Positions 1 to 11,674 of a DNA stretch of 11,674 bases are shown one piece after another. Below the pieces are notes generated by a model. The model searched no databases. It was not told the DNA's origin and worked only from the letters and a program-made list of their open reading frames with translations. The stretch lies in assembly GCA_946407175.1 (NCBI GenBank), contig CAMJNB010000013.1, positions 1 to 11,674 on the forward strand. The letters are read 5' to 3'. Source of the stretch: an uncultured Selenomonadales bacterium (GTDB taxonomy: Bacteria; Bacillota_C; Negativicutes; Selenomonadales; Selenomonadaceae). How positions within the stretch are numbered: position 1 is the stretch's first letter; each line of letters begins with the position of its first letter. A program made the translations under genes and the position numbers.

Positions 1-1138
1 AGTGGACGTGAGGACCCGTGCTGAAACCGGTACTTCCCATGTACGCAATGAGTTGACCGCGCTTAACTTGCTGACCGGCAGAAACCACAACTTGCGAAGC
101 GTGACCGTAGCGCGTCATTATGCCGTTGCCGTGATTTATGTCAACCATATTGCCGTAGCCGCCCGCGTTCCAACCCGCGTAGTCGACAACACCGTCAGCA
201 GTCGCAACAATCGGCGTGCCCATGTCGTTGGCAATATCAATGCCGGGATGAAAGTCACTGCCGCCCCAACGCAAGCCGTAAGGTGACGTGACGACGCCGG
301 TAGTTGGCCAAATTGAAGGCATATGCGAATCAGCCGCAGGCATTCCGCCGAACTGGCTTAAATCGTACGTGATAGAGGTGCTTGCCCATGAGCCGCTGAA
401 ATTCGGAATTGAATTTGCCACGCTTGTAGCATTTGCAGTAGCTGCCGCCGCCGCCAACTTTTCACGCTGATTTTTAAGTTCGGTTTGAAAATCGTCCAAA
501 CTTTCCTTGCGAATGTTGACGCGCGTTTCAAGCATTGCCAACGCCTCTGCAACGTTTTCTACCGTTAAGTCGTCAATCGGGCCGCCTTGTCCGTTATGTT
601 CACTTTCAGCCGGTGCAGATTCTTCAGTAGCGGCAGTTGCTGACTCTGCAGAAGTTTCAGCCGCCGCATTTTCAGCCGGTGTTTCACCTTCGGCAGACGT
701 TGTATTTTCAGAAGTTGCCGGCGTTGTACCTTCTGCGGGTGTTTCGACTTTATCTTCCTTAGGCGGATTCAGTCCCGCTTGAATACGAAGTTCCTGTTCC
801 TGCTGTGCAAGATTATGCAACGTTTCATTTAATTCAGACGCCTTTTTTGATACTGATAAAAGTTGCTCTTGCTGATGCTCCTCCGCTTGCTGAATTTCTT
901 GAACAATCGCCGCATTTCGCTGTACATTCAGCGCGCTGTAAATTGAGTAGCCGCACGCGCCTATGAAAATTGCAACGCCTACAAAAAATGTAAAGACGCC
1001 GAATTTATAAAGTCCCGCGCTTAGTTTTATTTCACGATCCTTGCCGCCGCCCGTGACGTGTATGACATATTCTTCTTCTTTTAATTCAAGCGCGTCATCG
1101 TCTTCAAACGGCACAAGGTCTTTCTTCTCCTCGTCCAA
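1..1138 (-). CDS. membrane-anchored M23 family metallopeptidase (C-terminus cut by window edge)
   Basis: This is a probable peptidoglycan endopeptidase of the lysostaphin/M23 type, held in the inner membrane with its catalytic domain outside. 379 codons are visible. Residues 1-43 are acidic and cytoplasmic. One membrane helix spans about 44-66, followed by a coiled-coil-like Gln/Glu-rich stretch (73-122) and a low-complexity Ala/Thr/Glu/Pro linker (130-185). A second helical part (190-235) leads to the M23 domain from about 277. Zinc ligands are visible: H297 and D301 in the HPGID motif, H346 in YGHA, and H377/H379 in HVH, the last complete codons in the window. The start is TTG: a TAA lies in frame two codons upstream and a GGAGGGAGA sequence (1157-1149) precedes it. 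The gene follows tolC but a terminator separates them, so it probably has its own promoter. The family assignment is secure. Hydrolase activity is inferred, and a regulatory role is possible. Confidence 0.9.
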   Translation of the reverse strand, partial: MDEEKKDLVPFEDDDALELKEEEYVIHVTGGGKDREIKLSAGLYKFGVFTFFVGVAIFIGACGYSIYSALNVQRNAAIVQEIQQAEEHQQEQLLSVSKKASELNETLHNLAQQEQELRIQAGLNPPKEDKVETPAEGTTPATSENTTSAEGETPAENAAAETSAESATAATEESAPAESEHNGQGGPIDDLTVENVAEALAMLETRVNIRKESLDDFQTELKNQREKLAAAAATANATSVANSIPNFSGSWASTSITYDLSQFGGMPAADSHMPSIWPTTGVVTSPYGLRWGGSDFHPGIDIANDMGTPIVATADGVVDYAGWNAGGYGNMVDINHGNGIMTRYGHASQVVVSAGQQVKRGQLIAYMGSTGFSTGPHVH

Positions 1139-1174
1139 CTGTTAAATATCTCCCTCCGTGTAGGAATTTTTATA

Positions 1175-1222
1175 ACAAAAAACGTAATTTTTCGCTGAAT
1201 GACAACAGCTGAAAAAATTACG
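1175..1222 (-). terminator. rho-independent terminator after the tolC-like gene
   Basis: An imperfect hairpin spans 1222-1183, with arms CGTAATTTTT...CAGCTG and CAGCGAAAAATTACG. On the minus strand six T residues (1182-1177) follow at once. It lies between the tolC-like stop (1271) and the M23 start (1138), so it should end transcription from the tatA-tolC unit. Confidence 0.75.
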
Positions 1223-1270
1223 CTAATTTTACACTTTGAATATGAATTTTTCAAGGTAATTGCAATTTTG

Positions 1271-2524
1271 TTATGGATTAATGACGGACATCGTGTCGCC
1301 GATTGCATGAGCCAAGTCAAGGCGATAACGTGTCACGTCGTAAGTAGCGCTGACAAAATTTTTTTTCGCAGTGGCAAGCGCTTGTTCCGCGTCTAAAATG
1401 TCAAGCAAAATTCCTTCGCCGGCATTATATTTTTCCGTCGCGATATACCTTTCTTCTTCGGCAAGGTCAACCGCCGTTTTCGTAGTACGAAGACGCATAA
1501 CGGCAATTTTTAAATTTTTGTACGCCGTGACAACGCTTTCATGCACCGAGTTAATATCATTTTGCATGGCAAGGCGCAGGCGTTCAAGTTCAATTTCTGC
1601 GGCTTTAATCTTCGCGTCGGTAACTCCGCTGTCAAAAATCGTCATTGACGCGCTGACGCCTACAGTAACGTCCGGCGTTGGGTGCCATGAATCGTAAACG
1701 GAACTGAAACCGGTTGACACATCTGCCGATACAGTAGGGCGTTTATCTGCGCGGGCAAGTTCAATATTCAATTCGCCCTTTTCAACATTAACCGCGTCCG
1801 CCTTCAAATTGTTTCGGTTTTCATCGGCAAGCGCCAAAAAATTTTCAAGTTCGACGAGTTCAAGCGCGGTAGAAAATTCTTCCAGCGTGAAATTTGAAAT
1901 GCTGTCGACCGACATTAACGTTGCAAGCTTAACTAAATTAACTTCATACGCGGCGTGAGATTTTGCCGTAGTCTGTCCGGCGTTGGAAGTTTCAACCTGC
2001 GCACGCAGAAGATCAATTTTTGCCTTAGCTCCCGCGTCGTACAAAAGTGCAATGTAATTTTCATGCGCCGCGTAATTTTCCTCTGTCTGCAAATCTACCT
2101 TAGCCGTCGCCAAACTTTCCAGTGCGTCGACGTAGGCAGTGGCAACTTGGTAAATTAAATCGTCCTTCGCTTGATAAAAATTCAACCGCGCAGTTTCTAT
2201 GTCAAGCTCCGCTGATTTTATCTGCGTTTCAAGCTTATTGCCGCTGTACAAAGGAAGTGACGCCGAAATAGTTCCGCGCAGAGATTTTGAATGGTTATTG
2301 CCTTCGGTCTTCGACATATTAAAACTACTTGACCCGCTGACTCTTACGCCTTTACCTCCCTTCGCCGATTTTAAATCTGCCTCTCTTACTGCGATTGCGT
2401 ATTCTGTTTGTTGCAGGGAAGGATTATTTTCAAGTGCCGTCTGTACTGCCTCTTGCAATGTTAGTGCACTTGCTGACATAGGCATCATAAGTGACAGTGC
2501 CAGTGCCGCCAAAAATTTTTTCAT
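1271..2524 (-). CDS. TolC family outer-membrane efflux protein
   Basis: This is an outer-membrane channel protein of the TolC/OEP family, expected to form a trimeric beta-barrel with a periplasmic helical tunnel serving an efflux pump or type I secretion. The 417-residue protein starts with a clear signal peptide (MKK, a hydrophobic core, cleavage likely after ASA at 18-20). The mature part shows the two-fold OEP repeat: long Ala/Glu/Lys-rich helices at about 25-55 and 100-205, and again at about 235-265 and 315-410, separated by beta-rich segments (60-95 and 270-305). The last helix carries the typical YNAG...LDILDAEQ segment. AAGGAG lies seven bases before the ATG. The gene starts inside the 3' end of the tatA-like gene, so translation is probably coupled. 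No inner-membrane pump or adaptor gene is present, so the substrate is unknown. Presence of this gene implies a diderm cell. Confidence 0.9.
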   Translation of the reverse strand: MKKFLAALALSLMMPMSASALTLQEAVQTALENNPSLQQTEYAIAVREADLKSAKGGKGVRVSGSSSFNMSKTEGNNHSKSLRGTISASLPLYSGNKLETQIKSAELDIETARLNFYQAKDDLIYQVATAYVDALESLATAKVDLQTEENYAAHENYIALLYDAGAKAKIDLLRAQVETSNAGQTTAKSHAAYEVNLVKLATLMSVDSISNFTLEEFSTALELVELENFLALADENRNNLKADAVNVEKGELNIELARADKRPTVSADVSTGFSSVYDSWHPTPDVTVGVSASMTIFDSGVTDAKIKAAEIELERLRLAMQNDINSVHESVVTAYKNLKIAVMRLRTTKTAVDLAEEERYIATEKYNAGEGILLDILDAEQALATAKKNFVSATYDVTRYRLDLAHAIGDTMSVINP

Positions 2525-3428
2525 AGATTTTCTCCTTGACGAAGGAATTATTTTTCGCCATTTCTATCACGTCATACACATTTAACGCAGTTTTTTTTTC
2601 CGCCAATTTATTTTCTTCCGCCGTGCAAACTTTATCAGCCGAATCATTTTTATCTGCTTTATCAGACGTTGAATCATTTTCCGCCGCCGCAACACTTTCA
2701 GCTACAGCAGAATTATTTTCAGTTGCCGAAATATTTTTATCTGACGTTGCAACATTATCAGCTGTTGAAACTTTATCAGCCGCCGCAACACTTTCAGCCG
2801 TGCTAACTTTTTCAGCTGATGAAATTTCATTTTTAGCGCTGTCATCTTCCGGCTTGGCAAGTGAAGTATCTTTCGCCATTTGTATTACGTCGTCAACACT
2901 GACCGCAGTTTTTTTTTCTTCAAAAACTTTATTTGCGGCGTCAATAAGTTTTTCGCGCGAAATATTTTCTGTAGGATTGTCCAAAGGCAGAGACTTTTCA
3001 ACGCTAACGGTTTTGTCCGCAGTTACAGCTTTGTCCGCCGTGACATTTTTTTTTACGTTAACAGTTTTGTCAACGGCAACATTTTCAGCAGGTTTATCAG
3101 CCGCAATGTTTTTGTCAAGCGTAACGGTTTTATCCGCCGTGACATTTTTTTCAACCGTAACAGCTTTGTCCGCAGTTACAGCTTTATCTGCGGTAACGAT
3201 TTTATCTGCGCTAACATTTTCGGCAGGCGGTTTTTCAAGCGTGACAGATTTTTTTTCATTTTCCAGTGACACTTCGTCCAGCGTAGCACGAAACATTGCC
3301 TGCGCCTTGCGAAATTCACGTAAACCCTTGCCGATAGCGCGACCGACTTCAGGCAATTTGCCGGGACCGAAAATTACAAGTCCGGCGATTAATATCATTA
3401 CCAATTCTCCGGCGCCAATTCCGAACAT
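2430..3428 (-). CDS. TatA-like protein with long hexapeptide-repeat tail
   Basis: The first 45 residues are a textbook TatA/TatB/TatE module: a short N-terminal membrane helix (about 5-19), the FGPGKLPE hinge (20-27) and an amphipathic helix (GRAIGKGLREFRKA). TatA oligomers normally form the protein-conducting element of the twin-arginine system with TatC. Members are usually 60-100 residues; this one has 332. The extra 270 residues are low-complexity: hexapeptide repeats of the V-T-A-D-K-x type (about 72-147 and 203-272) and a 24-residue segment present twice (170-193 and 276-299). An AGGTGG sequence precedes the ATG. No tatC is in the window. The frame runs 95 nt into the downstream tolC-like gene before stopping, so the last 32 residues are encoded in overlap. 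The TatA domain is certain. Whether the protein works in Tat export, or uses the TatA module only as a membrane anchor, cannot be told. Confidence 0.85.
   Translation of the reverse strand: MFGIGAGELVMILIAGLVIFGPGKLPEVGRAIGKGLREFRKAQAMFRATLDEVSLENEKKSVTLEKPPAENVSADKIVTADKAVTADKAVTVEKNVTADKTVTLDKNIAADKPAENVAVDKTVNVKKNVTADKAVTADKTVSVEKSLPLDNPTENISREKLIDAANKVFEEKKTAVSVDDVIQMAKDTSLAKPEDDSAKNEISSAEKVSTAESVAAADKVSTADNVATSDKNISATENNSAVAESVAAAENDSTSDKADKNDSADKVCTAEENKLAEKKTALNVYDVIEMAKNNSFVKEKIYEKIFGGTGTVTYDAYVSKCTNIARGSTDGT
2532..2921 (-). repeat. 24-residue duplicated segment in the TatA-like tail (copies 2921-2850 and 2603-2532)
   Basis: Residues 170-193 and 276-299 share the pattern EKKTA-x-x-V-x-DVI-x-MAK-x-x-S-x-x-K and align without gaps. 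The second copy reaches the ribosome binding site of the tolC-like gene. The segment looks like a short amphipathic helix repeated at the end of each hexad block. Confidence 0.8.
2613..3215 (-). repeat. hexapeptide-coding repeats in the TatA-like tail
   Basis: Two blocks encode degenerate six-residue repeats: 3215-2988 (consensus [VI]-[TSAN]-x-[DE]-K-x, about a dozen units such as VTADKA and VTVEKN) and 2822-2613 (units such as STAESV, AAADKV, STADNV). A P-x-EN interruption recurs near residues 68-71, 113-116 and 152-155, hinting at a higher-order unit of about 40 residues. A region without this pattern (2987-2823), which holds the first copy of the 24-residue segment, separates the blocks. 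The strict hexad period is visible directly; any fold is a guess. Confidence 0.8.
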
Positions 3429-3482
3429 TCACTTTCCACCTTTTAACTTTTTTTGCTCTAAACTGACGTTTTTAGTTTTTAT

Positions 3483-3488
3483 ATTATA
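3483..3488 (-). promoter_or_regulatory. putative -10 element for the tatA-tolC unit
   Basis: On the minus strand a perfect TATAAT lies just past the cysK terminator, about 55 bases before the tatA-like start. I see no good -35 at 16-18 bases; the sequence there falls within the terminator stem. Support rests on position and the -10 hexamer only. Confidence 0.5.
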
Positions 3489-3492
3489 ACAT

Positions 3493-3526
3493 AAAAAAAA
3501 CGTCTCGAAAAATTTTTTCCGAGACG
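3493..3526 (-). terminator. rho-independent terminator after cysK
   Basis: A seven-base-pair CGTCTCG/CGAGACG stem (3526-3520 with 3507-3501), extended by A/T pairs, is followed on the minus strand by eight T residues (3500-3493). It begins 30 bases after the cysK stop and closes the sulfur cluster. Confidence 0.9.
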
Positions 3527-3555
3527 ATTAATATTGCCTACAAAAATTTTTATTT

Positions 3556-4485
3556 TCAGCTGAATAATTCGGTAGAAAGGTAGCGGTCACCGGTATCAGG
3601 CAACAGTACTACGAAAGTTTTACCCGCGTACTCTTCGCGCTTTGCAAGTTCACAAGCCGCCGCCAATGCCGCGCCGGCCGATATTCCTACCAAAATGCCT
3701 TCCGCGCGTGCAAACTCTCTGCCGAATTTAAAAGCGTCATCATTCGCAACGGCGACGACTTCATCATAAATTTTCGTGTCCAAAGTTTCAGGAACGAATC
3801 CCGCGCCGATGCCTTGAATTTTATGTGCACCTGCTTTACCTTGCGACAAAACGGGTGACGTGGCAGGTTCAACGGCAATGACTTTAACATTGGGATTTTG
3901 CTTTTTCAAAAATTTTCCCGTGCCGGTAACCGTGCCACCGGTACCTACGCCGGCAACAAACACGTCAACAGCGCCGTCAGTGTCACGCCAAATTTCGGGA
4001 CCGGTTGTAACTTCGTGAATCGCGGGATTTTCGGGATTGGTGAACTGCGACGGTATGAATGCATTTGGAATTTCTTTTGCCAATTCCTCCGCCTTAGAAA
4101 TGGCGCCTTTCATACCCTTAGCGCCGTCAGTCAAAACAATTTCTGCGCCGTAAGCTTTCAACAAATTGCGACGTTCAACACTCATTGTTTCAGGCATTGT
4201 CAAAATTGCACGGTAACCTTTCGACGCCGCGACGCTTGCGAGACCGATACCGGTGTTGCCGCTGGTAGGTTCGATAATCACCGAGTCAGCTTTAAGCTTG
4301 CCTTCACGTTCCGCCTTTTCAATCATCGCCTTTGCAATTCTGTCTTTGACACTGCCGGCGGGATTGAAGTATTCAAGCTTGACGAGAATTTTTGCATTGA
4401 CGTTAAACGCGGCAGAAAAATTTTTCGCGTGCAAAAGTGGCGTATTGCCGATTAATTCCGTGACGCTTGTATAAATGTTTGCCAT
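3556..4485 (-). CDS. cysK: cysteine synthase (O-acetylserine sulfhydrylase)
   Basis: This cytoplasmic PLP enzyme converts O-acetylserine and sulfide into cysteine and acetate. It has 309 residues, the usual length for CysK. Visible landmarks are the PLP lysine K47 in NPAGSVKDR, the substrate loop TSGNTG (74-79), the phosphate-binding loop GVGTGGT (179-185), S269 in GISAG that contacts the PLP ring nitrogen, and the C-terminal [10 protein letters not shown] chose the ATG at 4485 because GGAGG lies eight bases upstream; an in-frame start at 4500 would place that site inside the gene. It is the last gene of the sulfur cluster, 94 bases after metY. A perfect 16-bp palindrome in that gap may regulate it separately. 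Some CysK-like enzymes take other acceptors, but the motifs here are those of the classic enzyme. Confidence 0.96.
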
Positions 4486-4505
4486 GAAATTTTCCTCCAA
4501 AATAT

Positions 4506-4521
4506 TTTAAAGCGCTTTAAA
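4506..4521. promoter_or_regulatory. 16-bp perfect palindrome before cysK, LacI/CcpA-operator-like
   Basis: TTTAAAGCGCTTTAAA is fully self-complementary and centred on CG. It matches 12 of 14 positions of the Bacillus cre consensus (TGWAANCGNTNWCA) and fits the AAnCGnTT core common to LacI-family operators. It sits 20 bases upstream of the cysK start, just above its ribosome binding site, in the metY-cysK gap. Function is inferred from sequence only. Confidence 0.45.
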
Positions 4522-4540
4522 TCCTTCGTCCCTTTTTAGT

Positions 4541-4582
4541 AGCTTAGAGCTTGGAGCTTAGAACTTAGAGTTTAGAGCTTTA
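4541..4582. repeat. heptanucleotide tandem repeat tract A, ending in the metY stop codon
   Basis: There are six consecutive 7-bp units on the plus strand with consensus AGCTTAG (variants AGCTTGG, AACTTAG, AGTTTAG, AGCTTTA). The last unit contains the TAA stop of metY read on the minus strand. In metY orientation the units read CTAAGCT, so a stop triplet recurs every seven bases. Confidence 0.85.
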
Positions 4583-5872
4583 ATTTAAAGCATTAAAACC
4601 GGTTTCAAGGTCGGCAATAATGTCATCAATGTGTTCAGTGCCGATTGAAAGGCGAATGGTAGATTGAGAAATACCGGACGCGGCAAGTTCGGCGTCATTC
4701 ATCTGCGAATGCGTAGTTGACGCAGGGTGAATCACCAAAGATTTCACGTCGGCAACATTGGCAAGCAGTGAGAAAATTTTAAGGTTGTCGATAAACTTTT
4801 TAGCCGCCGCCGCGCCGCCTTTAATTTCAAAAGTGAAAATGGAAATGCCGCCGTTCGGAAAATATTTTTTGTAAAGTTCATGGTCCGGGTGATTTGCAAC
4901 GGCAGGGTGATTGACTTTCGTAACATTGGGATTTTTGCTTAAGTAGTCGACAACTTTCAAGGCGTTTTCTACGTGACGTTCGACGCGCAGAGATAAAGTT
5001 TCCGTGCCTTGCAAAAGTAAAAATGCATTGAGCGGTGAAATTGCCGCGCCCGTGTCGCGCAGAATTGTAGCACGAATGAAAGTGGTAAATGCCGCCGCGC
5101 CGAGTGCTTTATAAAATTGCACGCCGTGATAGCTTGCATTGGGTTCAACGAGCCATGAGAATTTGCCGGATTTTTCCCAGTCAAACTTGCCGCCTTCAAC
5201 GATAATGCCGCCTAAAGTCGTGCCGTGACCGCCGATAAATTTTGTAGCGGAATGAACTACGATATCGGCGCCGTATTCAAAGGGACGAATTTGGTACGGC
5301 GTTGCAAAGGTGTTGTCGATAACCAGCGGAATTTTATGTTTATGCGCGATATCGGCGACGGCTTTAATGTCAATCAAGTTCGCATTGGGATTGCCGACGG
5401 ATTCAATGAAAATAAATTGCGTGTTGGGTTTAACCGCTTTGTCAAATGCGTCAACGCCTTGCGTAGGGTCGACAAAAGTAGTTTCAACGCCGTAGTCGGG
5501 CAGTGTATGTTCAAAGAGATTGTAACTGCCGCCGTAAATCGTGGTAGCGGCAACAATGTGATGACCTTTGTGCGCAAGAGCTTGGGCAGTGTAGGTGACA
5601 GCCGCCGCGCCGCTTGCCAACGCCAATGCAGAAGTGCCGCCTTCCAATGCCGCAATACGCTTTTCAAAAATTTCTTGCGTGGGATTGGTCAAGCGTCCAT
5701 AAATATTTCCGGCGTCACGAAGTGCAAAACGGTCAGACGCATGGTCGAAATTATGAAAGACGTAGGACGTAGTTTGATAAATCGGAACTGCGCGCGCGTC
5801 CGTCACGGGATCAGCCTGCTCCTGTCCTACGTGTAGCTGTAACGTTTCAAATTTGTACTTTCTTTCACTCAT
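4580..5872 (-). CDS. metY: O-acetylhomoserine sulfhydrylase (aminocarboxypropyltransferase)
   Basis: This PLP enzyme of the Cys/Met metabolism family makes homocysteine from O-acetylhomoserine and sulfide, the direct-sulfhydrylation route to methionine. It has 430 residues, the usual MetY length; the related MetB and MetC are nearer 380-400. Visible features: the N-terminal ETLQLHVGQ and PIYQTTSYVF segments, the phosphate-binding tyrosine and arginine in NIYGRLTNPT (57-66), SGAAAV (88-92), D186 in VIDNTFATP, and the PLP lysine K211 in HSATKFIGGHGT. The ATG at 5872 has AAAGGAG eight bases upstream; an in-frame start 24 codons earlier lies inside the preceding hydrolase gene and lacks support. 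Only 13 bases separate it from that gene, so the two are co-transcribed. It pairs with cysK: both enzymes consume sulfide. Confidence 0.95.
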   Translation of the reverse strand: MSERKYKFETLQLHVGQEQADPVTDARAVPIYQTTSYVFHNFDHASDRFALRDAGNIYGRLTNPTQEIFEKRIAALEGGTSALALASGAAAVTYTAQALAHKGHHIVAATTIYGGSYNLFEHTLPDYGVETTFVDPTQGVDAFDKAVKPNTQFIFIESVGNPNANLIDIKAVADIAHKHKIPLVIDNTFATPYQIRPFEYGADIVVHSATKFIGGHGTTLGGIIVEGGKFDWEKSGKFSWLVEPNASYHGVQFYKALGAAAFTTFIRATILRDTGAAISPLNAFLLLQGTETLSLRVERHVENALKVVDYLSKNPNVTKVNHPAVANHPDHELYKKYFPNGGISIFTFEIKGGAAAAKKFIDNLKIFSLLANVADVKSLVIHPASTTHSQMNDAELAASGISQSTIRLSIGTEHIDDIIADLETGFNALN

Positions 5873-5885
5873 TTTAAAAACTCCT

Positions 5886-6728
5886 TTATAAAATAATTTC
5901 GTGCGGCAAAACGTCGGCGTCATGATTCGCCAAAGACTCCACACAATTTTTATCCAAACTCATCTGCCTAATCCATTGCAAAGACTTCAACGCGCTTTCT
6001 TCGTCCAACGCAGTACCCGGCGGTATCATCTCTTTCCATGACTTTGTAGCGTAACCGCCGTCCGAATAAAGTAAGACAAACTTTTCACCGACGTTAATCT
6101 TTACCGCCGTCAAGCCGCTTGTATGTCCAGGAATTTTTATCAGCTCAACGGCGCCGTTGCCGAGCAGGTCAAAACTTTTTCCTACGGGACCGACGCCGGT
6201 ATCTGCAAAGTCAAACTTTTCAAAATTAATGCCGTCCCACATACTTTTGACGTAGCGTATCGGAAAATTTTTAGTATCTTGAAGTTCGTCCGTGCTGACG
6301 ATAATTTTTTTTGCGTCTTTAAGCTGTCGAAGTCCGCTTGCATGGTCGGTGTGCAGGTGCGTCAAAATTACAAAGTCGATATCGCGCGGCAGGATATTAA
6401 TTTTTTCAAGCTGTTCGGTAATGGATTCGCCTTTAGGCAAAACGCCTTGATTAATCAAAAAATGTCCAATGCCAAGATGTTTAACCTGCGCGATTCTGTC
6501 ATATTCGCCGTCGGGAGAAATTTCACGATGCCAGCCGGTATCGACTAGGATTTTCAGCTTTTCAATTTCAATCAAGTACGCGGAAACAGGTAACCAAATT
6601 CTATTCTTCCTGCCGTACAAAGATACAAGCGAAAGTTGCACGGGGTTGGGATTTTTTACGCTGTCTTTGAAAGGCAGTGCATGAGAAACATAAACTTTGC
6701 CGGTATGAAAGATTTTAATTTTTGCCAT
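5886..6728 (-). CDS. metallo-beta-lactamase fold hydrolase, N-acyl-homoserine-lactonase-like
   Basis: This is a soluble 280-residue di-zinc hydrolase of the MBL superfamily. Metal ligands can be read off: HLHTDH at 124-129, H202 in PGHTSG, D223 in YSDGGY and H269 in NHD. The layout matches AHL lactonases of the AiiA/AttM group, including ILVDTG (60-65) and a tyrosine three residues after the bridging aspartate (Y226), the position of the catalytic tyrosine in AiiA. There is no signal peptide. GTAGGAG lies eight bases before the ATG. The gene ends 13 bases before metY, whose ribosome binding site overlaps the stop, so it belongs to the sulfur cluster. This context argues for a metabolic role, possibly on a homoserine- or homocysteine-derived lactone or thiolactone, rather than quorum quenching. 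The fold is certain; the substrate is not known. Confidence 0.85.
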   Translation of the reverse strand: MAKIKIFHTGKVYVSHALPFKDSVKNPNPVQLSLVSLYGRKNRIWLPVSAYLIEIEKLKILVDTGWHREISPDGEYDRIAQVKHLGIGHFLINQGVLPKGESITEQLEKINILPRDIDFVILTHLHTDHASGLRQLKDAKKIIVSTDELQDTKNFPIRYVKSMWDGINFEKFDFADTGVGPVGKSFDLLGNGAVELIKIPGHTSGLTAVKINVGEKFVLLYSDGGYATKSWKEMIPPGTALDEESALKSLQWIRQMSLDKNCVESLANHDADVLPHEIIL

Positions 6729-6750
6729 GATAATTGCTCCTACATTTACA

Positions 6751-6799
6751 AATTCTAATTTCTAATTCCCAGCCCCTAATTCCCAGCCCCTAAATTCCT
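6751..6799. repeat. heptanucleotide tandem repeat tract B, at the DUF2292 gene stop codon
   Basis: Seven 7-bp units on the plus strand include ATTTCTA, ATTCCCA and GCCCCTA, with a 14-bp pair (ATTCCCA then GCCCCTA) present twice. In the orientation of the upstream gene the tract carries TAG triplets at multiples of seven, and the first functional one is the gene's own TAG stop (6792-6790). It fills most of the 61-base gap before the MBL-fold gene. Confidence 0.85.
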
Positions 6800-7128
6800 T
6801 CGCCGTCAAGACCGGTAAAACGGTGACGGACAATGCGTTCAATCTGCACGACGCGCCCTTTCTGAATTTTTATGGAAAGTTGCCCATATTCAAGCTTGGA
6901 AAATTCCTGCCGAATTTTATTTTCAAGCACGGTAAAAGTTTTTTCGTCACGCTGAAAAATTTCTTCGCGCCATTCGGCAAGTCTGCGCTTATGATGAATT
7001 TCAACTTGGATTAAGCAAGCGTCCTGCGCGATAAAAATAATTTCGCCGTTTGGAATTTTACAAAGCTCGTTCAATACGAAATTTAAAACTTCGTCGGGAA
7101 TTGTACCTGCGGAAAATTTTTTTGCCAT
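6790..7128 (-). CDS. small protein with two DUF2292 (YezD-like) units
   Basis: This is a 112-residue soluble protein. Residues 68-103 match the DUF2292/YezD pattern: an amphipathic helix, then G-[QE]-hydrophobic-x-I, then Q-x-G-x-VVQIE and a late RxRF. Residues 11-52 repeat the same layout: VLNELCKIPNGEIIFI, then QDACLIQVE, then HKRRL. It therefore looks like a tandem duplication of a domain that is usually single in proteins of about 50-60 residues. The ATG at 7128 has AAGGTG six bases upstream; an in-frame start at 7167 lies in the leader. It is the first gene of the sulfur cluster, behind its own promoter and attenuator. The function of DUF2292 is unknown to me; from memory, YezD proteins often occur near sulfur-assimilation genes, and this context agrees. 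Confidence 0.75.
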   Translation of the reverse strand: MAKKFSAGTIPDEVLNFVLNELCKIPNGEIIFIAQDACLIQVEIHHKRRLAEWREEIFQRDEKTFTVLENKIRQEFSKLEYGQLSIKIQKGRVVQIERIVRHRFTGLDGEGI

Positions 7129-7228
7129 AGTTTCACCTTGAAAACGCAAAAAGCCCGCAAAGTTCAACTTTCGCTAAACTTGCAGGCTTTCGCTTATCGA
7201 ATCACCTAAAAAGTTTCTATTATTCATG
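7129..7228 (-). promoter_or_regulatory. attenuator-type 5' leader of the sulfur cluster
   Basis: About 100 nt lie between the predicted start of transcription (near 7228) and the first start codon. They hold a strong intrinsic terminator (7188-7148) before the ribosome binding site. A competing hairpin, with arms AAAGT at 7171-7167 and ACTTT at 7163-7159 extended by GC at each side (one bulge), would use the terminator's 3' arm. This is the layout of a transcription-attenuation switch. A 17-codon reading frame (ATG at 7227, TAG at 7176-7174) ends inside the terminator's 5' arm; it has three Ser codons but no Cys or Met beyond the start, and no ribosome binding site. I do not recognise S-box, T-box or other sulfur-linked riboswitch signatures. 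Confidence 0.5.
7148..7188 (-). terminator. intrinsic terminator inside the leader of the sulfur cluster
   Basis: The arms AGCCTGCAAGTT and AACTTTGCGGGCT pair over about 12 base pairs with one bulge and one G-U pair, and are followed by five T residues (7152-7148). It lies downstream of the promoter at 7263-7235 and upstream of the first gene, so it can act as an attenuator. It could also stop transcripts arriving from hpf. Confidence 0.8.
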
Positions 7229-7234
7229 GCGGCA

Positions 7235-7263
7235 ATTTTACCGCAGAAAAATTTTTTTGTCAA
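7235..7263 (-). promoter_or_regulatory. sigma-A-type promoter of the sulfur cluster
   Basis: On the minus strand a perfect -35 TTGACA (7263-7258), a 17-base spacer and a -10 TAAAAT (7240-7235) lie in the gap after hpf. It is one of the two best promoter matches in the window and would drive the leader, DUF2292 gene, MBL-fold gene, metY and cysK. Confidence 0.8.
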
Positions 7264-7311
7264 TTAAAATGCGAACCGAGACTTTTCAGATACTTGGTCA
7301 AGGTTTAAAGT

Positions 7312-7869
7312 CTATTCGTTTTGGGATTCGAGTAAACCGTAGGCTCCGTCATTGCGCTTGTAGACTACGCAAATTTCATTGGTGGTACCGTCACGGAAGA
7401 CGAAGAAATTATGGTTGAGCAAGTTCATCTGCAAAATCGCCTCTTGCACGTCCATAGGCTTGACGAAAAAGCGTTTTGTCTTGACGATAGGAAATTCGCC
7501 GCTTTCTTCTTCAACTTCGGCATGAGATTGGGCTTTTTGTTCTTCGATTAATTCTGACTTGAACCCGCCGGCGCGGAAACGTCTTTCCAATTTAGTTTTT
7601 TGCTTACGAATTTGGCGTTCAAGTTTTTCAATGACGAGGTCGATTGACGTGTACATATCGCCGGTTGCCTCTTCGCCGCGCAGAATCAGACCGCCGGGAA
7701 CTTCCGCCGTGACTTCGACGATGTGACGATCTTTTTCAACCGCCAACAAGACAAAAATTTCGTCAATGTTGCCGAAGTACTTTGTAATTTTTCCCACGCG
7801 CTTTTCAACGTATTCGCGCAGTGCCGGCGTAACTTCGGTGTTTTTACCTCTGATGTTGAATGTTGCCAT
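7312..7869 (-). CDS. hpf: long-form ribosome hibernation promoting factor
   Basis: This is the stationary-phase factor that binds the small ribosomal subunit and dimerises 70S ribosomes into inactive 100S particles. The 185 residues match the long form: an N-terminal S30AE/RaiA domain (about 1-100, starting FNIRGKNTEVTPALREYVEKR), a charged linker (101-127) and the C-terminal dimerisation domain (about 128-182, with KRFFVKPMD-x-QEAILQMNLL-x-H-x-FFVFR). The ATG at 7869 is preceded by GAAGGGG at nine bases; a start nine codons upstream is less likely. A sigma-H-like promoter lies 44 bases upstream, in keeping with control of this gene by general-stress and sporulation-entry sigma factors in Bacillus. 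It is monocistronic or read into the next leader. Confidence 0.95.
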   Translation of the reverse strand: MATFNIRGKNTEVTPALREYVEKRVGKITKYFGNIDEIFVLLAVEKDRHIVEVTAEVPGGLILRGEEATGDMYTSIDLVIEKLERQIRKQKTKLERRFRAGGFKSELIEEQKAQSHAEVEEESGEFPIVKTKRFFVKPMDVQEAILQMNLLNHNFFVFRDGTTNEICVVYKRNDGAYGLLESQNE

Positions 7870-7912
7870 GAAATTCAACCCCTTCCGATATTTCATTTAT
7901 CTTGTTGGTAAT

Positions 7913-7939
7913 ATTCTGCAAATTTATTAATAATCCTTT
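7913..7939 (-). promoter_or_regulatory. sigma-H-like promoter of hpf
   Basis: On the minus strand AAAGGATTA (7939-7931), an 11-base spacer and GCAGAAT (7919-7913) match every specified position of the Bacillus subtilis sigma-H consensus RnAGGAwWW, N11-12, RnnGAAT. No equally good sigma-A site was found in this gap. The match is visible; use by sigma-H here is inferred from the known regulation of B. subtilis yvyD/hpf. Confidence 0.6.
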
Positions 7940-7967
7940 ATCGTGAAAAAAAAGTGCAAAAAAATTT

Positions 7968-8044
7968 AGCGGTTAGTGATTAGCAGTTAGCCGTTAGCTA
8001 AAAAATATCTGATAAAAGCTACCGGCTATCAGCTAAAAAAATAA
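7968..8044. repeat. heptanucleotide tandem repeat tract C between rpiB and hpf
   Basis: There are five clear 7-bp units on the plus strand (AGCGGTT, AGTGATT, AGCAGTT, AGCCGTT, AGCTAAA; TTAGnnn when rotated). Six further units fit the same register more loosely. TAGCCGTTAGCT (7987-7998) and AGCTACCGGCTA (8017-8028) form an inverted repeat with one mismatch, so the tract can fold as a hairpin. Unlike the other tracts it does not touch a stop codon. Confidence 0.8.
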
Positions 8045-8070
8045 CCGTCGAAAAACTCGGCGGCATTTTT
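8035..8070. terminator. hairpin with A tract and T tract, probable terminator of rpiB
   Basis: CCGTCGA (8045-8051) and TCGGCGG (8057-8063) form a seven-base-pair stem with a five-base loop. A seven-base A tract lies to its left (8035-8041) and a five-base T tract to its right (8066-8070), so either strand could terminate. rpiB ends 52 bases away on the minus strand and is the likely client, although on that strand the stem has one C-A mismatch where the plus strand has a G-U pair. Confidence 0.55.
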
Positions 8071-8082
8071 AATCTGATTTAA

Positions 8083-8110
8083 TTGACATAGAAAAATATT
8101 TTGCTAAAAT
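8083..8110 (+). promoter_or_regulatory. promoter-like sequence pointing antisense into rpiB
   Basis: TTGACA (8083-8088), a 16-base spacer and TAAAAT (8105-8110) lie just outside the 3' end of rpiB and face into it. No plus-strand gene follows until 8699, so a transcript would be antisense to rpiB. The match is good, but the region is AT-rich and chance is possible. Confidence 0.4.
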
Positions 8111-8121
8111 TTTTGCGTAGA

Positions 8122-8583
8122 TTATTTCACGGGCACGCAATGTTTATTGTTAATGTCGGCAACTTTTTGAACGCGGCGACGATATTTTTCCGCAGTCAAA
8201 GGTTCGGTCTTCATCCACGTTTTAACAATTTCCATAGCGATAGCGCCGCCGATAATCTTACCGCCGATGCAAAGTACGTTGGAGTCGGTATGTTCGCGTG
8301 ACAGCTGTGCGCAGAAAGGGTCTTGGCAGACGGCGGCATAAATGCCGTAAATTTTATTGGCAATGAGCGCACTGCCGTAGCCTACGCCGTCAACAAAAAT
8401 GCCGCGATCACATTCGCCCTTAGCAACGGCAAGAGCCGCAGGATAAACGAAGTCCGAAAGGTCGCAACCTTCTTCGTCGTACGTGCCGAAATCTTTTACC
8501 TCGTGTCCCTGACTTTCGAGATATTTTTTAATTTCGTTTTTAAGTTGCGTACCGGCATGATCATTCGCCATTGCAATTTTCAT
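8122..8583 (-). CDS. rpiB: RpiB/LacAB family sugar-phosphate isomerase
   Basis: This 153-residue protein fits ribose-5-phosphate isomerase B in length and fold: MANDHAG (5-11) with the substrate-binding D8/H9, GIFVDGVGYGSALIANK (61-77), SREH-x-DSNVLC (95-105) with H98, and a C-terminal YRRRV. RpiB interconverts ribose-5-phosphate and ribulose-5-phosphate; LacA/LacB relatives act on galactose-6-phosphate. An oddity: the catalytic cysteine of the E. coli type (CGTGIG) is replaced by D65 and the following threonine by V67, and the position of the mycobacterial glutamate appears to be S71. The protein may therefore use another base or another substrate. AAGGGGG lies seven bases before the ATG. 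The gene stands alone, divergent from the glucosaminidase gene. Family is secure; the exact reaction is less so. Confidence 0.85.
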   Translation of the reverse strand: MKIAMANDHAGTQLKNEIKKYLESQGHEVKDFGTYDEEGCDLSDFVYPAALAVAKGECDRGIFVDGVGYGSALIANKIYGIYAAVCQDPFCAQLSREHTDSNVLCIGGKIIGGAIAMEIVKTWMKTEPLTAEKYRRRVQKVADINNKHCVPVK

Positions 8584-8621
8584 AAAAACGCCCCCTTAAC
8601 TTTTAATCTATTAATAAACTG

Positions 8622-8650
8622 TTGACATATTTCAAATTTTGTTTTCTAAT
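8622..8650 (+). promoter_or_regulatory. sigma-A-type promoter of the envelope cluster
   Basis: A perfect TTGACA (8622-8627), a 17-base spacer and TCTAAT (8645-8650) lie in the divergent gap, giving a leader of about 40 bases before the glucosaminidase start. No promoter of similar quality is seen before the next two genes, so it may drive all three. Confidence 0.75.
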
Positions 8651-8698
8651 ACTTCTATATGCGAAAAATTTTTCCTTTAATAACATGGAGGATTGACG

Positions 8699-9889
8699 AT
8701 GAAAAAATTTTTAAAATTAGCTTTAACCGTTTTAATGCTTGTAGCTTTAATCGGTTTTCAAAATGTCGAGGCGGTAGAATTTAATCACGCGCTTTTAAGT
8801 CAAACGCAACTCACGGAGTCGCCGTCTAAAGAAATTCCGAAAATTATCATGCGTGAAAATCCAAATGACATTACGATTTTCGGTGAACCCGTTGCAACGC
8901 AGGAACAAATGGTAAAATTTATTCTTGCTCGCAATCCCAAACCTAAAATTAATTGCTCGGTTGAAGATTTGGTACGCTACTACTACGAAGAAGGCAAGGT
9001 GGAAGGTATTAGACCGGATATCGCACTTTGTCAGGCGATTAAGGAAACCGGTACATGGAATTACGGCGGTGACGTTACGCCGGATCAAAATAATTTCTGC
9101 GGTCTCGGTACGACCGGCGGCGGCGTGAAAGGCGGTTACTTTCCTACGCCGCAAATTGGCGCACGCGCACACATTCAGCACCTTTTGGTTTACACGTCAA
9201 CACGTCCCACAAAACTTGCCAACGTCGACCCGCGCTATGACCACATTGTAAACAATCGCCGTGACGTTTTCGGAAACATTCATACTTGGACCGGCTTAAA
9301 CGGCGTATGGGCGGCGCCGGGACATAACTACGGACAGGATATTTTAAGCTTGTGGCAACAGGCGCTTGCAATGTACAGCGGCAAAGAATCAATGGCACAA
9401 GTTGCAAGGGAAGGCAACACGCCGGAAGATCGTGCGGCAAATTTCGTACTCAGCGGCTTGATTCATTACGGCAACAAAGATTTTGTAAGTGCGGAGGCTG
9501 ATTTTAAAGCGGCGGTGAACATTCTGCCCGACAACCCCGATGCACTTTGGGAGTTGGCATTGGCGCAGGAGAAAAACGGTAAATCTACAGACGCCATTCA
9601 AACTTACAACAGAATTTTACAGATTAAACCGAATTTTGAAGTCGGTTATTATCAGCGTGGCAGATTAAAGCTTGCACGCAACGATTACAATGGCGCGATT
9701 AGTGATTTCAAGCGTGCATTGCAAATTGAAAGCAGATTCGTCGACGCGCAAAATGAAATTGCCATTGCTCATTTCAGACAGGGTATGTACAACGAGGCGT
9801 GGCAGGATATTCAAATTGCCGCGAAGATTAACACGACTCATGCCATTGTAAATGAAAACTACGCAAAACTTAAAGCGTGCGTGAGATAG
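8699..9889 (+). CDS. secreted GH73-type glucosaminidase with C-terminal TPR repeats
   Basis: This 396-residue envelope protein is probably a peptidoglycan N-acetylglucosaminidase. A signal peptide (residues 1 to about 25, cleavage near VEA) is followed by a short linker and a glucosaminidase domain (about 85-228). That domain has the putative catalytic glutamate E116 in QAIKETG, a conserved NNFCGLGTTGGG loop (131-142), the GARAHIQHL segment (154-162) and the W-A-x-PGHNYG segment near its end. Residues 245-380 form about four TPR units, each near 34 residues, likely for protein contact. The ATG at 8699 has GGAGG seven bases upstream; an upstream TTG at 8693 is only one base from that site and is rejected. 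It lies 70 bases before the LytR-CpsA-Psr gene, in the same direction. Domain calls are firm; the TPR fusion is less usual for this family. Confidence 0.85.
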   Translation: MKKFLKLALTVLMLVALIGFQNVEAVEFNHALLSQTQLTESPSKEIPKIIMRENPNDITIFGEPVATQEQMVKFILARNPKPKINCSVEDLVRYYYEEGKVEGIRPDIALCQAIKETGTWNYGGDVTPDQNNFCGLGTTGGGVKGGYFPTPQIGARAHIQHLLVYTSTRPTKLANVDPRYDHIVNNRRDVFGNIHTWTGLNGVWAAPGHNYGQDILSLWQQALAMYSGKESMAQVAREGNTPEDRAANFVLSGLIHYGNKDFVSAEADFKAAVNILPDNPDALWELALAQEKNGKSTDAIQTYNRILQIKPNFEVGYYQRGRLKLARNDYNGAISDFKRALQIESRFVDAQNEIAIAHFRQGMYNEAWQDIQIAAKINTTHAIVNENYAKLKACVR

Positions 9890-9942
9890 CTGTTAGCTCT
9901 TAGTTGTTAGCGATTAGATTTTAACTACCGGCTAAAAGCTAA
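9887..9942. repeat. heptanucleotide tandem repeat tract D, starting at the glucosaminidase stop codon
   Basis: There are eight 7-bp units beginning with the TAG stop itself: TAGCTGT, TAGCTCT, TAGTTGT, TAGCGAT, TAGATTT, TAACTAC and two weaker ones. Six successive units start with TAG or TAA, so all three frames meet stops within 21 bases. The tract fills nearly the whole gap to the next gene. Confidence 0.9.
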
Positions 9943-9959
9943 CCGAAAGGGATGATGCA

Positions 9960-11501
9960 TTGGAAAATTCAAATTTGCCGCCGCGCCGAACTCGTTCAAC
10001 GAGCCGGCTTGTACTTTTTATCTTTCTCGTAGTATGCTTTGTCTCTTCCGCCGTTGCAGGAGCTATGTTCGCCTCGTCCAGCATTTTTGACGGCAAGAAA
10101 AAAACTCCCGTGACGGTGGTTGAAAGGCAACGCGAAAATAAAAGCGAAGAATTGATAAAGGCAACAGATAAGGCGACAATTTTAATTATGGGCGTCGATA
10201 TCCGTCACGACGACGTAGGACGCTCTGATACTCTCATGGTGGCAACGGTTGACCCTAAGTTAGACCAAGCGTCTCTTTTGTCAATTCCGCGTGACACGCG
10301 CGTTCGCATTTACGGCTACGGTTTTGACAAAATAAATGCGGCGTATGCTTACGGCGGTGAACCGCTTACCGAAATTACCGTAGAAAATTTTCTCGGCATT
10401 GACATTGACCATTACATAATCGTAAACGTTCACAGCTTTGTGAAAATAATTGACGCGATAGGCGGCGTGGATATTTACGTGCCGAAACGTATGTACTACG
10501 AAGATCCCTGGGACGACGACGGTGGGCTTGTAATTGACCTTTATCCCGGCAGACAGCATATGGACGGTAAAACCGCCGTCACTTACGTTCGTTACCGTGA
10601 TTCGGAAGGCGATATCGGCAGGGTGCAACGTCAGCAACAATTTATGGCGGCTTGCTTAGACAAAGTAACTTCGCCTGAAATTATTCCGCGCATACCTGAA
10701 ATTATTCGTGAAGTCATGTACGCCGTCGAAACAGATATGTCTTTCCGCGAACTCTTGGGACTTGCAGGCGCTCTTAAAGCCGCGCAGGCTAACGGTCTTT
10801 ACACCGACATGGTGCCGGGTTATCCTTTGTACATTGACGAAATAAGTTATTGGATTCCCTACGTTGATGAGATTCGTTACGCAATGGCGGAAGGTCTCGG
10901 CGTTTCCGTTGATTCAAATATGCGCCGCCGCTTTGAAAGGGACGCTCACGAATACAGTGATTCAATTCCCGACAGCGCGGTTGAAATTCCCGAAGGCGCA
11001 GAAAATATCGGTTCGGCAAGGCGCAAGGACAGTGATTCAAGGCGCAGAAGTTCATTTGATTCACGCGAAAGTTACAACAGCCGCAGTGATTCGACTTCTG
11101 ATGATGACCGCTATTCAACGTCTGAAAGTCGCACTACCGCAGATGACCGCCGCACTACTTCCGGTGACCGTTACAATTACGATAATCGCAGTGATGACAC
11201 TACGTCGCGCAGGTATGATGAAAGAAGTTCTTCTGAAAATCGCACGTACGACGATAGGCGTGAAAGTTCGACTTCCGATAACTACCGGCGCGGTGAAAGT
11301 TATCCCAGCGACTATCAGCGTGACGATACCGCTACGCGCAGGCTTGATGACACTACGTCGCGCAGGTATGACGACAGGAGTTCTTCAGAAAATCGCACCG
11401 ATTCCGACAGCCGCGTTTATGACGACCGCCGAACTTCCGACAGCTACCGACGTGACACTACAACTGATGAGGCATTCGACACGCCGTCACGAAGGAATTA
11501 A
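9960..11501 (+). CDS. LytR-CpsA-Psr family protein with Ser/Asp/Arg-rich repetitive tail
   Basis: This membrane-anchored protein is of the LCP family, whose members transfer glycopolymers from undecaprenyl phosphate to peptidoglycan. It has 513 residues: a short cytoplasmic start, one membrane helix (about 17-39), then the LCP domain (about 72-290). Conserved residues are visible: GVD-x-R (78-82), R88-SD, SIPRDT (108-113), YVRYR (209-213) and D218-x-x-GR-x-QRQQ. Residues 350-513 are low-complexity and highly charged, rich in S, D, R, T and Y, with an internal duplication (DDTTSRRYD...RSSSENRT at 412-429 and 463-480). Such a long zwitterionic tail is not typical of the family. The start is TTG, with AAAGGG nine bases upstream; nearby ATGs are out of frame. 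A glycosyltransferase gene follows after 36 bases, which supports a role in attaching a surface polysaccharide. Confidence 0.9.
   Translation: MENSNLPPRRTRSTSRLVLFIFLVVCFVSSAVAGAMFASSSIFDGKKKTPVTVVERQRENKSEELIKATDKATILIMGVDIRHDDVGRSDTLMVATVDPKLDQASLLSIPRDTRVRIYGYGFDKINAAYAYGGEPLTEITVENFLGIDIDHYIIVNVHSFVKIIDAIGGVDIYVPKRMYYEDPWDDDGGLVIDLYPGRQHMDGKTAVTYVRYRDSEGDIGRVQRQQQFMAACLDKVTSPEIIPRIPEIIREVMYAVETDMSFRELLGLAGALKAAQANGLYTDMVPGYPLYIDEISYWIPYVDEIRYAMAEGLGVSVDSNMRRRFERDAHEYSDSIPDSAVEIPEGAENIGSARRKDSDSRRRSSFDSRESYNSRSDSTSDDDRYSTSESRTTADDRRTTSGDRYNYDNRSDDTTSRRYDERSSSENRTYDDRRESSTSDNYRRGESYPSDYQRDDTATRRLDDTTSRRYDDRSSSENRTDSDSRVYDDRRTSDSYRRDTTTDEAFDTPSRRN
11193..11398 (+). repeat. 53-bp direct repeat in the LCP tail (11193-11245 and 11346-11398)
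   Basis: Two copies with only a few mismatches lie 153 bp apart, a multiple of three, so both encode DDTTSRRYD-x-RSSSENRT. They show recent in-frame duplication in the charged tail and make the region prone to length variation by recombination. Confidence 0.85.
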
Positions 11502-11522
11502 GAATTAATAATGTAGAATTTA
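11495..11522. repeat. heptanucleotide tandem repeat tract E, overlapping the LCP stop codon
   Basis: Four 7-bp units (GAATTAA twice, TAATGTA, GAATTTA) fill most of the gap before the glycosyltransferase gene. The first unit contains the TAA stop of the LCP gene. It is the shortest and most AT-rich of the five tracts, so chance is harder to exclude here. Confidence 0.6.
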
Positions 11523-11537
11523 AAGTGAGGATAAGTC

Positions 11538-11674
11538 ATGGCAAAAAAATCTGATAAAAAATCCAATGCACCGGCAATTTCAGTTATCATAGCGCTTTAC
11601 AACACTGAAAAATATCTCGCGCAATGTCTTGAAAGTCTCTTGGCGCAAACTATGCAGGACTTTGAAGTTATCGT
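11538..11674 (+). CDS. GT2 family glycosyltransferase (N-terminus only)
   Basis: The first 45 codons are visible. After a lysine-rich start comes AISVIIALYNTEKYLAQCL, the hallmark first strand and helix of GT-A fold family 2 glycosyltransferases, followed by ESLLAQTMQDFEVIV. Such enzymes move sugars from nucleotide donors onto lipid-linked or protein acceptors on the cytoplasmic side. The ATG at 11538 has an AAAGTGAGGA sequence upstream. It lies directly after the LCP gene in the same direction, suggesting a role in making the surface glycopolymer that the LCP protein attaches. Acceptor and sugar cannot be told from this fragment. Confidence 0.88.
   Translation, partial: MAKKSDKKSNAPAISVIIALYNTEKYLAQCLESLLAQTMQDFEVI

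Follow-up and report, generated by a model that had tools for sequence, protein, structure and literature searches.

The window and its heptad tracts

The stretch of DNA analysed here, called the window below, comprises the 11,674 nucleotides at positions 1 to 11,674 (forward strand) of contig CAMJNB010000013.1 (assembly GCA_946407175.1), from an uncultured Selenomonadales bacterium of the family Selenomonadaceae. Among its products are PALP (cysK-type), Cys/Met PLP enzyme (metY-type), metallo-beta-lactamase, DUF2292, S30AE hibernation factor, LacAB/RpiB, TPR (with glucosaminidase), LytR-CpsA-Psr and glycosyltransferase 2 proteins, and its spacers carry five tracts of seven-base units. We propose that these tracts belong to a genus-level family of heptameric simple-sequence repeats, with the usual unit TAG + NNNN, which turns over fast in intergenic DNA and is putatively near-neutral; we give this reading a probability of roughly 0.6.

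An initial annotation, made from the letters by themselves, had located the five tracts, and all were recovered by inspection and with Tandem Repeats Finder (TRF). It had also described four of them as joined to stop codons, and these prove to be the TAA of metY (4580–4582), the TAG of the DUF2292 gene (6790–6792), the TAG of the TPR gene (9887–9889) and the TAA of the LytR-type gene (11499–11501). Tract 1 extends up to its stop codon; the arrays of tracts 2, 4 and 5 include theirs. The features are as follows.

4507–4527, minus strand: leftover copy of a metY 3' end beyond tract 1, resembling the metY end of relative L001 (alignment with L001 and L003)
4536–4580, minus strand: tract 1, six to seven heptads, TTAGAGC on the plus strand and a CTAA array in the direction of metY (TRF period 7, score 60)
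6753–6792, minus strand: tract 2, TAG-core heptads in the gene direction, unit 1 being the DUF2292 stop (TRF period 7 at 6753–6767, score 30; period 14 at 6762–6798, score 65)
7966–8000, plus strand: tract 3, TTAG arm (sequence; TRF period 7 at 7980–7998, score 31)
8018–8036, plus strand: tract 3, CTA arm, the inverted partner of the TTAG arm (sequence; predicted stem, z -2.9)
8045–8063, no strand assigned: terminator-like hairpin between rpiB and tract 3, outside the array (listed on the plus strand, T tail read on the minus strand)
9887–9921, plus strand: tract 4, TAG arm, unit 1 being the TPR stop (TRF period 7 at 9887–9911, score 36)
9925–9942, plus strand: tract 4, CTA arm (sequence; predicted stem, z -1.7, with 11 of 200 shuffles folding equally well)
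11495–11520, plus strand: tract 5, weak GAATTAA heptads including the LytR-type stop (TRF period 7, score 31)

Tracts 3 and 4 are inverted pairs, which the first reading had overlooked. In coding orientation tract 2 is a TAG array with TGG in two of its first six cores. Between tract 3 and the rpiB stop, some 80 nt away, lies the terminator-like hairpin, and bases 8035–8044 are read as its minus-strand T tail.

The metY-like protein of the window matches rumen Selenomonadaceae, including Quinella sp. 1Q7 (L015) and 1Q5 (L051), and the window is assigned to a Quinella-like rumen member of this family. The closest relative examined is from goat rumen (genome G004, locus L004), with two long blocks at 94.3 and 90.6% identity to the window, followed by one from reindeer (G001, L001) with blocks at 81–91%. 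Tract 1 alone passed our own period-7 threshold, giving one cluster in the window, and tracts 3–5 are weak by themselves; we accept these as real because the corresponding spacers of relatives also carry arrays. L004 has a different inverted pair at the tract 3 site, both L004 and L001 have longer arrays at the tract 5 site, and at the tract 2 site both have an array with other letters. At the L001 site orthologous to window positions 9889–9960 (tract 4) there is a whole gene instead, acetyltransferase-like by eye.

Period-7 arrays in related genomes

Genome-wide tests were run in relatives of the window rather than in its own genome; those near the window are represented by metagenome assemblies only, a single one per species. 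Gene calls came from a custom script rather than from annotation, and the control for period 7 consisted of neighbouring periods, plus the reversed pattern in genome pattern counts, rather than of shuffled spacers. Measured against neighbouring periods, the excess of intergenic 7-bp periodicity that the initial annotation had claimed was borne out in Quinella-like loci, G001 and G009. Across 31 Quinella-like loci (424 kb), three TTAG at a spacing of 7 occurred 22 times and at spacings of 4–6 and 8–12 never; general period-7 arrays numbered 22, as compared with 1–2 at periods 4–6 and 8–13. Another 49 loci (874 kb) held 11 period-7 arrays of other sequence and no TTAG series. The G001 sample (loci L115–L130 and L206–L225; 674 kb) yielded 171 period-7 arrays, the numbers for periods 4, 5, 6, 8, 9, 10, 11, 12 and 13 being 1, 0, 6, 1, 3, 1, 1, 1 and 0, and the G009 sample (220 kb) yielded 40, against 0–2 at other periods.

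The arrays are mostly intergenic, as are 171 of 181 in G001 (at a slightly looser threshold), where intergenic DNA makes up 12.4% of the total, and 34 of 43 in G009, where it makes up 15.1%. Among G001 spacers of at least 15 nt, arrays are present in 101/339 between co-directional genes, 13/35 between convergent genes and 7/39 between divergent ones.

A three-unit TTAG pattern was matched in 23 of 35 genomes, with 1,071 matches in G001 (37 for the reversed pattern), 527 in G009 (19), 134 in G004 (55) and 114 in G002 (1). It had zero matches in the genomes of Mitsuokella, Selenomonas (two), Schwartzia, Acidaminococcus, Propionispira and Pectinatus, and in five Quinella-like genomes (G008, G012, G013, G020 and G023). 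The four-unit TAG pattern was found in 70 of 189 genomes of the family; the large counts cluster in one block of the list together with Quinella-like genomes, and a few genomes elsewhere have 1–7. Counts in these related genomes run from 0 to 2,565 four-unit matches, and the birth, arm order and replacement of arrays are traceable in them site by site.

Unit composition and arm order

The usual unit is [T/C]AG followed by four variable bases, with 127 distinct heptads among the 899 units of 154 arms; these arms were picked by that very core, and core frequencies taken from them are to be read accordingly. When 153 arrays were picked regardless of core, TAG or CTA was part of the best-kept triplet in 103 of them, and TAA or TTA in 36. 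Sub-types TAGCNNT, TAGTNAG, TAGANNG, NNAGGGA and GAATTAA were found again at many loci, and single arrays can join arms of different sub-types. Different loci shared four-unit blocks in 15 locus pairs; when unit order was permuted 200 times, the mean was 5 and the highest value 11.

The arms follow a strong order. Denoting a TAG arm as F and a CTA arm as R, the TAG arm stood first in 49 and the CTA arm in 2 of the G001 spacers with two or more runs. The corresponding numbers were 5 and 0 in G009, 3 and 0 in G004 and 1 and 1 in G002, with no case in G003. These counts, like the final stop-overlap counts below, use a corrected orientation rule; early rules, which misread some CTAACAG and TAGCTAT units, had given F before R against R before F as 25 vs 1 and 35 vs 3 in two counts. 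The 121 array spacers of G001 comprised 40 of type FR, 1 FRF, 2 RF, 42 F, 24 R and 4 unclassified, and in the others whole inverted pairs stood in tandem (FRFR 5, FRFRFR 2, FRFRFRFR 1). Between divergent genes the TAG arm came first in all four two-armed cases (FR 3, FRFRFR 1, RF 0), and between convergent genes there were two FR and one RF. The TAG-first order, the persistence of sites and the holding of upstream stops, both described below, are seen mainly in G001.

Arrays and stop codons

Where the flanking genes of G001 are co-directional, 40 of 79 TAG-first arrays have a first run that starts before the upstream stop codon is complete, compared with 1 of 19 CTA-first arrays (p = 1.9e-4); the samples from G009, G004, G002 and G003 are too small for the same test to reach significance (p values of 0.25, 0.17, 0.52 and 1.0). 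Single TAG arrays of G001 start at a median of 2 nt past the stop and single CTA arrays at 28 nt (p = 3.6e-4, corrected rule), positions which had appeared alike under an early rule (p 0.51). By the early rule, stops overlapped by a TAG-first array were TAG in 38/48 cases, as compared with 68/427 of the other stops; by the corrected rule the 40 overlapped stops comprised 36 TAG and 4 TAA.

In 43 G001 genes a TAG stop and the array share one register, the stop falling in unit 1, 2 or 3 in 27, 10 and 6 genes, respectively. Equal thirds would be expected if genes ran into arrays randomly, which leaves two readings: arrays are seeded by the stop, or selection acts against longer extensions. Of 574 stops in the G001 sample, 127 are TAG, and 43 of those lie within a TAG series, so the arrays shift stop-codon usage there and are one way in which mutation creates stop codons and protein ends.

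The initial annotation had expected arrays to start near stop codons. Such starts are real, but they do not go beyond what insertion into short spacers would give; their dependence on orientation does. Array-bearing spacers of G001 measure 35 nt once the array is subtracted, against 33 nt for array-free ones. They are thus ordinary without the array, which is consistent with array insertion into short spacers. Array-cluster starts fell as 20, 16, 19, 7 and 37 of 99 across the spacer bins, with no crowding toward the stop.

The units retain their core in both arm types, the per-unit frequency being 0.881 for TAG or CAGGG in TAG arms and 0.857 for CTA in CTA arms. In TAG arms the core is kept at 0.88–0.98 in the first five units and at 0.25–0.83 deeper; CTA arms mirror this gradient, with 0.77–0.81 in the first three units and 0.80–1.00 later, so the weaker cores sit toward the middle of the array in both.

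It had been suggested from the window that a tract stops translation whatever the frame and serves as an mRNA spacer between co-transcribed genes, which would mean that arrays are selected for ending all reading frames. The association with stop codons stands; as the purpose of the arrays, a three-frame stop is very doubtful. The preference of TAG-first arrays for overlapping the upstream stop, the 43 genes that end in array register and the well-kept core of the first five TAG-arm units are all in its favour. However, CTA arms give no stops when read in the gene direction, yet keep their core similarly and with a mirrored gradient, and stops in every frame do not account for the core of these arms. 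The TAG-first order is also found between divergent genes, where no stop faces the array; array position stays within the short-spacer null, many relatives have no array in the same spacer and one stop per gene normally suffices. Probably, the stops in three frames are what lets TAG-first arrays overlap gene ends.

Potential for RNA structure

Because the arms are inverted, the arrays can form hairpins, and like REP/BIME elements these might stabilise, process or couple neighbouring messages. We regard such a role as unlikely. It would agree with the frequency of inverted pairs, with the 101 of 121 G001 array spacers that lie between co-directional genes, and with the predicted folding of several loci relative to shuffles (z of -7.4 for L001, -7.0 for L002, -7.0 for L023, -4.6 for L009 and -3.5 for L004:4225). 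In all, five of six loci from relatives and window tract 3 folded better than shuffled sequences, tract 4 did so weakly, and window tracts 1, 2 and 5 together with L004:6145 did not. An arm paired no better with its own partner (mean -21.5 kcal/mol) than with other arms (-19.8 kcal/mol; p 0.15), which speaks against partner-specific hairpins, and many arrays have a single orientation (42 F and 24 R of 121). T runs followed 4/101 arrays, and were thus rarer than at random spacer positions (24/157); on this count we rejected intrinsic terminators as well. A search with Rfam 15 returned no known structured RNA family at the gathering score in the window.

Turnover and origin of the arrays

Comparison of the window with G004 places very similar flanks around dissimilar arrays. 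Array limits were extrapolated from the ends of BLAST alignments, so that some arrays are trimmed. For tract 2 the flanks are 94.8 and 94.4% identical and the arrays score 0.76, against 0.72 for shuffled letters; for tract 3 the flanks are 96.4 and 98.7% (0.78 vs 0.72) and for tract 4 97.1 and 94.1% (0.74 vs 0.73). At these three sites the arrays are no closer to each other than shuffled ones despite flanks of 94–99%. Tract 5, with flanks of 81.1 and 92.2% and arrays at 0.86 vs 0.78, is partly shared. Tract 3 was probably replaced on the G004 branch, since L001 has an end of the CTA arm like that of the window.

Sites persist where letters do not. In three G001 stretches, spacers with and without a G001 array were compared with their orthologues, and G004 had an array in 13 of 15 array spacers but in only 2 of 14 array-free ones (p = 1.5e-4). 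Twelve of the 13 shared arrays were compared, the remaining one lying in a spacer of at least 600 bases; 6-mer similarity was at most 0.10 in 7 of the 12. In these comparisons, all between different species, arrays differ in both length and letters. The gene end at L129:7762, for example, carries different heptads in G001, G004 and G002 and GATCGAT octads in G003; L115:18377 shows a similar pattern, and G026 has no array there. One array of CTAATCC units, which ends at the next start codon (L115:17638–17670), departs from the general trend in being almost the same in G001 and G004. G003 has octanucleotide arrays (GATCGATA/GATCGATG) at L167:5114–5196, L191:221–261, L191:7555–7591, L204:3151–3206 and L003:12302–12332, and some of its octad sites hold heptad arrays in other relatives.

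The tract 1 site may record the birth of an array. L001, L003, L012 and L013 have no array there, and the L004 contig stops inside metY; beyond the array in the window lies the copy of an L001-like metY 3' end listed above, while the window metY itself ends in other codons. In G004 the 3' end of the gene at L129:9474 is likewise duplicated around an array. Gene-end duplications are not a general mark of arrays, having been found at 7/131 G001 clusters and 18/651 controls. The one clear case among those clusters is L207:2101–2139, where an array stands between 28-bp near-identical direct repeats that look like a duplicated ribosome-site and start region.

An alternative reading is that the arrays are mobile or templated elements, put in whole at gene ends or written there by an enzyme. 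The replacement of both arms between close relatives, the sub-types common to separate loci, the duplications at tract 1 and L129:9474 and the ordinary spacer length after removal of the array all fit this idea. We nevertheless consider it quite unlikely, as flank duplications overall are not above the control in the raw counts just given, a fixed element sequence is lacking, and the candidate enzymes do not follow the arrays in the genomes searched. Y1 transposase, which would be the mark of REP/RAYT elements, was not found in G001 or G009, and the 6 of 28 genomes that match it are mostly array-free. Reverse transcriptases are present in 11 of 28 genomes and absent from G009, G002 and G010. 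Loss of mismatch repair was also rejected as an explanation, since 26 of 28 genomes, G001, G009 and G004 among them, have MutS_II; the two in which it was not found are G002, which is array-rich, and G012, which is array-free.

We infer that slippage and recombination wrote the arrays and that these are near-neutral. Slippage in seven-base steps, together with block exchange between arrays, would make arrays expand, shrink and be replaced, and coding constraint would keep them within spacers. With TAG every seven bases, a TAG arm could enter a gene end and translation would still stop within about 21 bases; the recurrence of stops may therefore be a filter on the arrays that survive rather than the reason for their existence. 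Slippage with block exchange is the simplest mechanism because inverted pairs occur in tandem, four-unit blocks are shared, neither a Y1 transposase nor a reverse transcriptase tracks the arrays in the genomes searched and MutS is present in G001, G009 and G004.

Several observations weigh against our reading of the tracts as near-neutral repeats. Local slippage by itself predicts that all seven positions of a young array are alike, and here TAG is kept and four positions vary (in arms selected by core). At tract 3 both arms changed amid flanks of 96–99%, which looks like substitution more than drift, and the arm order is unexplained under neutrality. The comparisons are between different species only, in which a change of unit number is not directly seen. 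Site sharing is clear only for G004, the equivalent numbers being 4/8 vs 4/11 for G002 (p 0.66), 3/12 vs 0/14 for G026 (p 0.08) and 3/8 vs 0/11 for G003 (p 0.06). Orthologous G001/G004 arrays are still more alike than non-orthologous ones (mean similarity 0.245 vs 0.061, p = 0.001), and 2 of the 12 are nearly unchanged (similarity at least 0.8). Octads at heptad sites in G003 are not predicted by slippage strictly in steps of seven bases.

It is conceivable, though improbable, that gene ends in this genus are actively rewritten: genome-specific heptads would be placed at stops, nearly always with the TAG arm outward on both strands, entire inverted pairs would be swapped between close relatives and the site inherited, with octads instead at some sites in one species. 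If so, the agent would be a novel polymerase activity, recombination system or element priming on TAG, and the invariance of TAG next to four changing bases would be a sign of templating rather than slippage. The arm order and the replacement of arrays at conserved sites deserve further study.

Comparison with known heptameric repeats

Heptameric repeats have long been noticed in bacteria, and we know of no accepted reason for the number seven and no accepted function. Those of cyanobacteria go by the name of STRR. REP/BIME and REPIN elements are intergenic and often palindromic, are not tandem heptads and are associated with a Y1 transposase; the arrays described here are tandem heptads, and no Y1 transposase was found in G001 and G009.

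The initial annotation knew of no description of this family. Its TAG-core member is indeed absent from the literature searched, openly licensed PMC papers, in which there was no report of such arrays in Quinella or Selenomonadaceae, but the kind has already been described (PMC4692102, PMC4679880). PMC9585023 contains the word 'repeat' once, in a protocol passage.

According to the available sections of Rehm et al. (2015, PMC4692102), Xanthomonas has heptameric G-rich GGGNATC repeats and Nostoc has GGGGA(T/C)T. The Xanthomonas units are heterogeneous 7-nt sequences in 186 and 183 arrays per genome, 89–93% of them intergenic; they lie nearer the upstream gene, form convergent inverted pairs (70 and 75 cases), are few between divergent genes and, for the most part, stand between the same two genes in both of two species, with length and sequence that vary. 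As described there, nearly every trait seen here recurs with another unit, including the convergent inverted pairs, which in G001 take the form of the TAG-first order. The core in our arrays is TAG rather than GGGA, most units are without a G run and stop codons lie within the unit; the Xanthomonas consensus GGGANTN differs from [T/C]AG plus four variable bases, only the NNAGGGA sub-type being similar. Stop-codon overlap and arm order were measured here, and the per-genome counts are not comparable since definitions differ.

In the sections of MacGregor (2015, PMC4679880) that were available, TAACTGA direct repeats are reported from Beggiatoaceae, Cyanobacteria and some Bacteroidetes. The heptad is fixed, and the main genome has 169 direct sets and a single indirect one, of which most stand immediately before start codons; close strains differ by indels in 7-nt steps. 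Like our arrays, these repeats are intergenic heptads with stops in one orientation and a patchy distribution. Unlike them, the arrays here have many heptad variants and frequent inverted pairs and do not lie just before starts, the median distance to the start in G001 being 45.5 nt for single TAG arrays (n 36) and 22 nt for single CTA arrays (n 18). Mrazek (2007), as cited in the same sections, found heptanucleotides to be the commonest long-repeat class in most genomes; polymerase slippage was proposed and polymerase contact discussed. From long simple sequence repeats and cyanobacterial heptanucleotides, so far as these sources describe them, the present arrays are set apart by the three-base core with a variable rest and by the strong arm order. 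Our best reading is that they belong with the repeats known from Xanthomonas, Nostoc and Beggiatoaceae, and have a TAG core, strong polarity and rapid turnover.

Other repeats

Elements unlike the heptads were also encountered in the spacers. A dispersed repeat of about 97 bp at L129:16077–16175 has many matches in G004, G002 and G026. In L035, L011 and L002 the spacer at the tract 1 site is filled by another dispersed intergenic element, as is the L001 spacer at the tract 3 site; in L035 and L011 this element has a TTTTCTTTTGGCGCAAAAGAAAAG-like palindrome. Within the window, positions 2430–3428 encode a protein with a long degenerate 18-base coding repeat, which we take from its N-terminus to be TatA-like.

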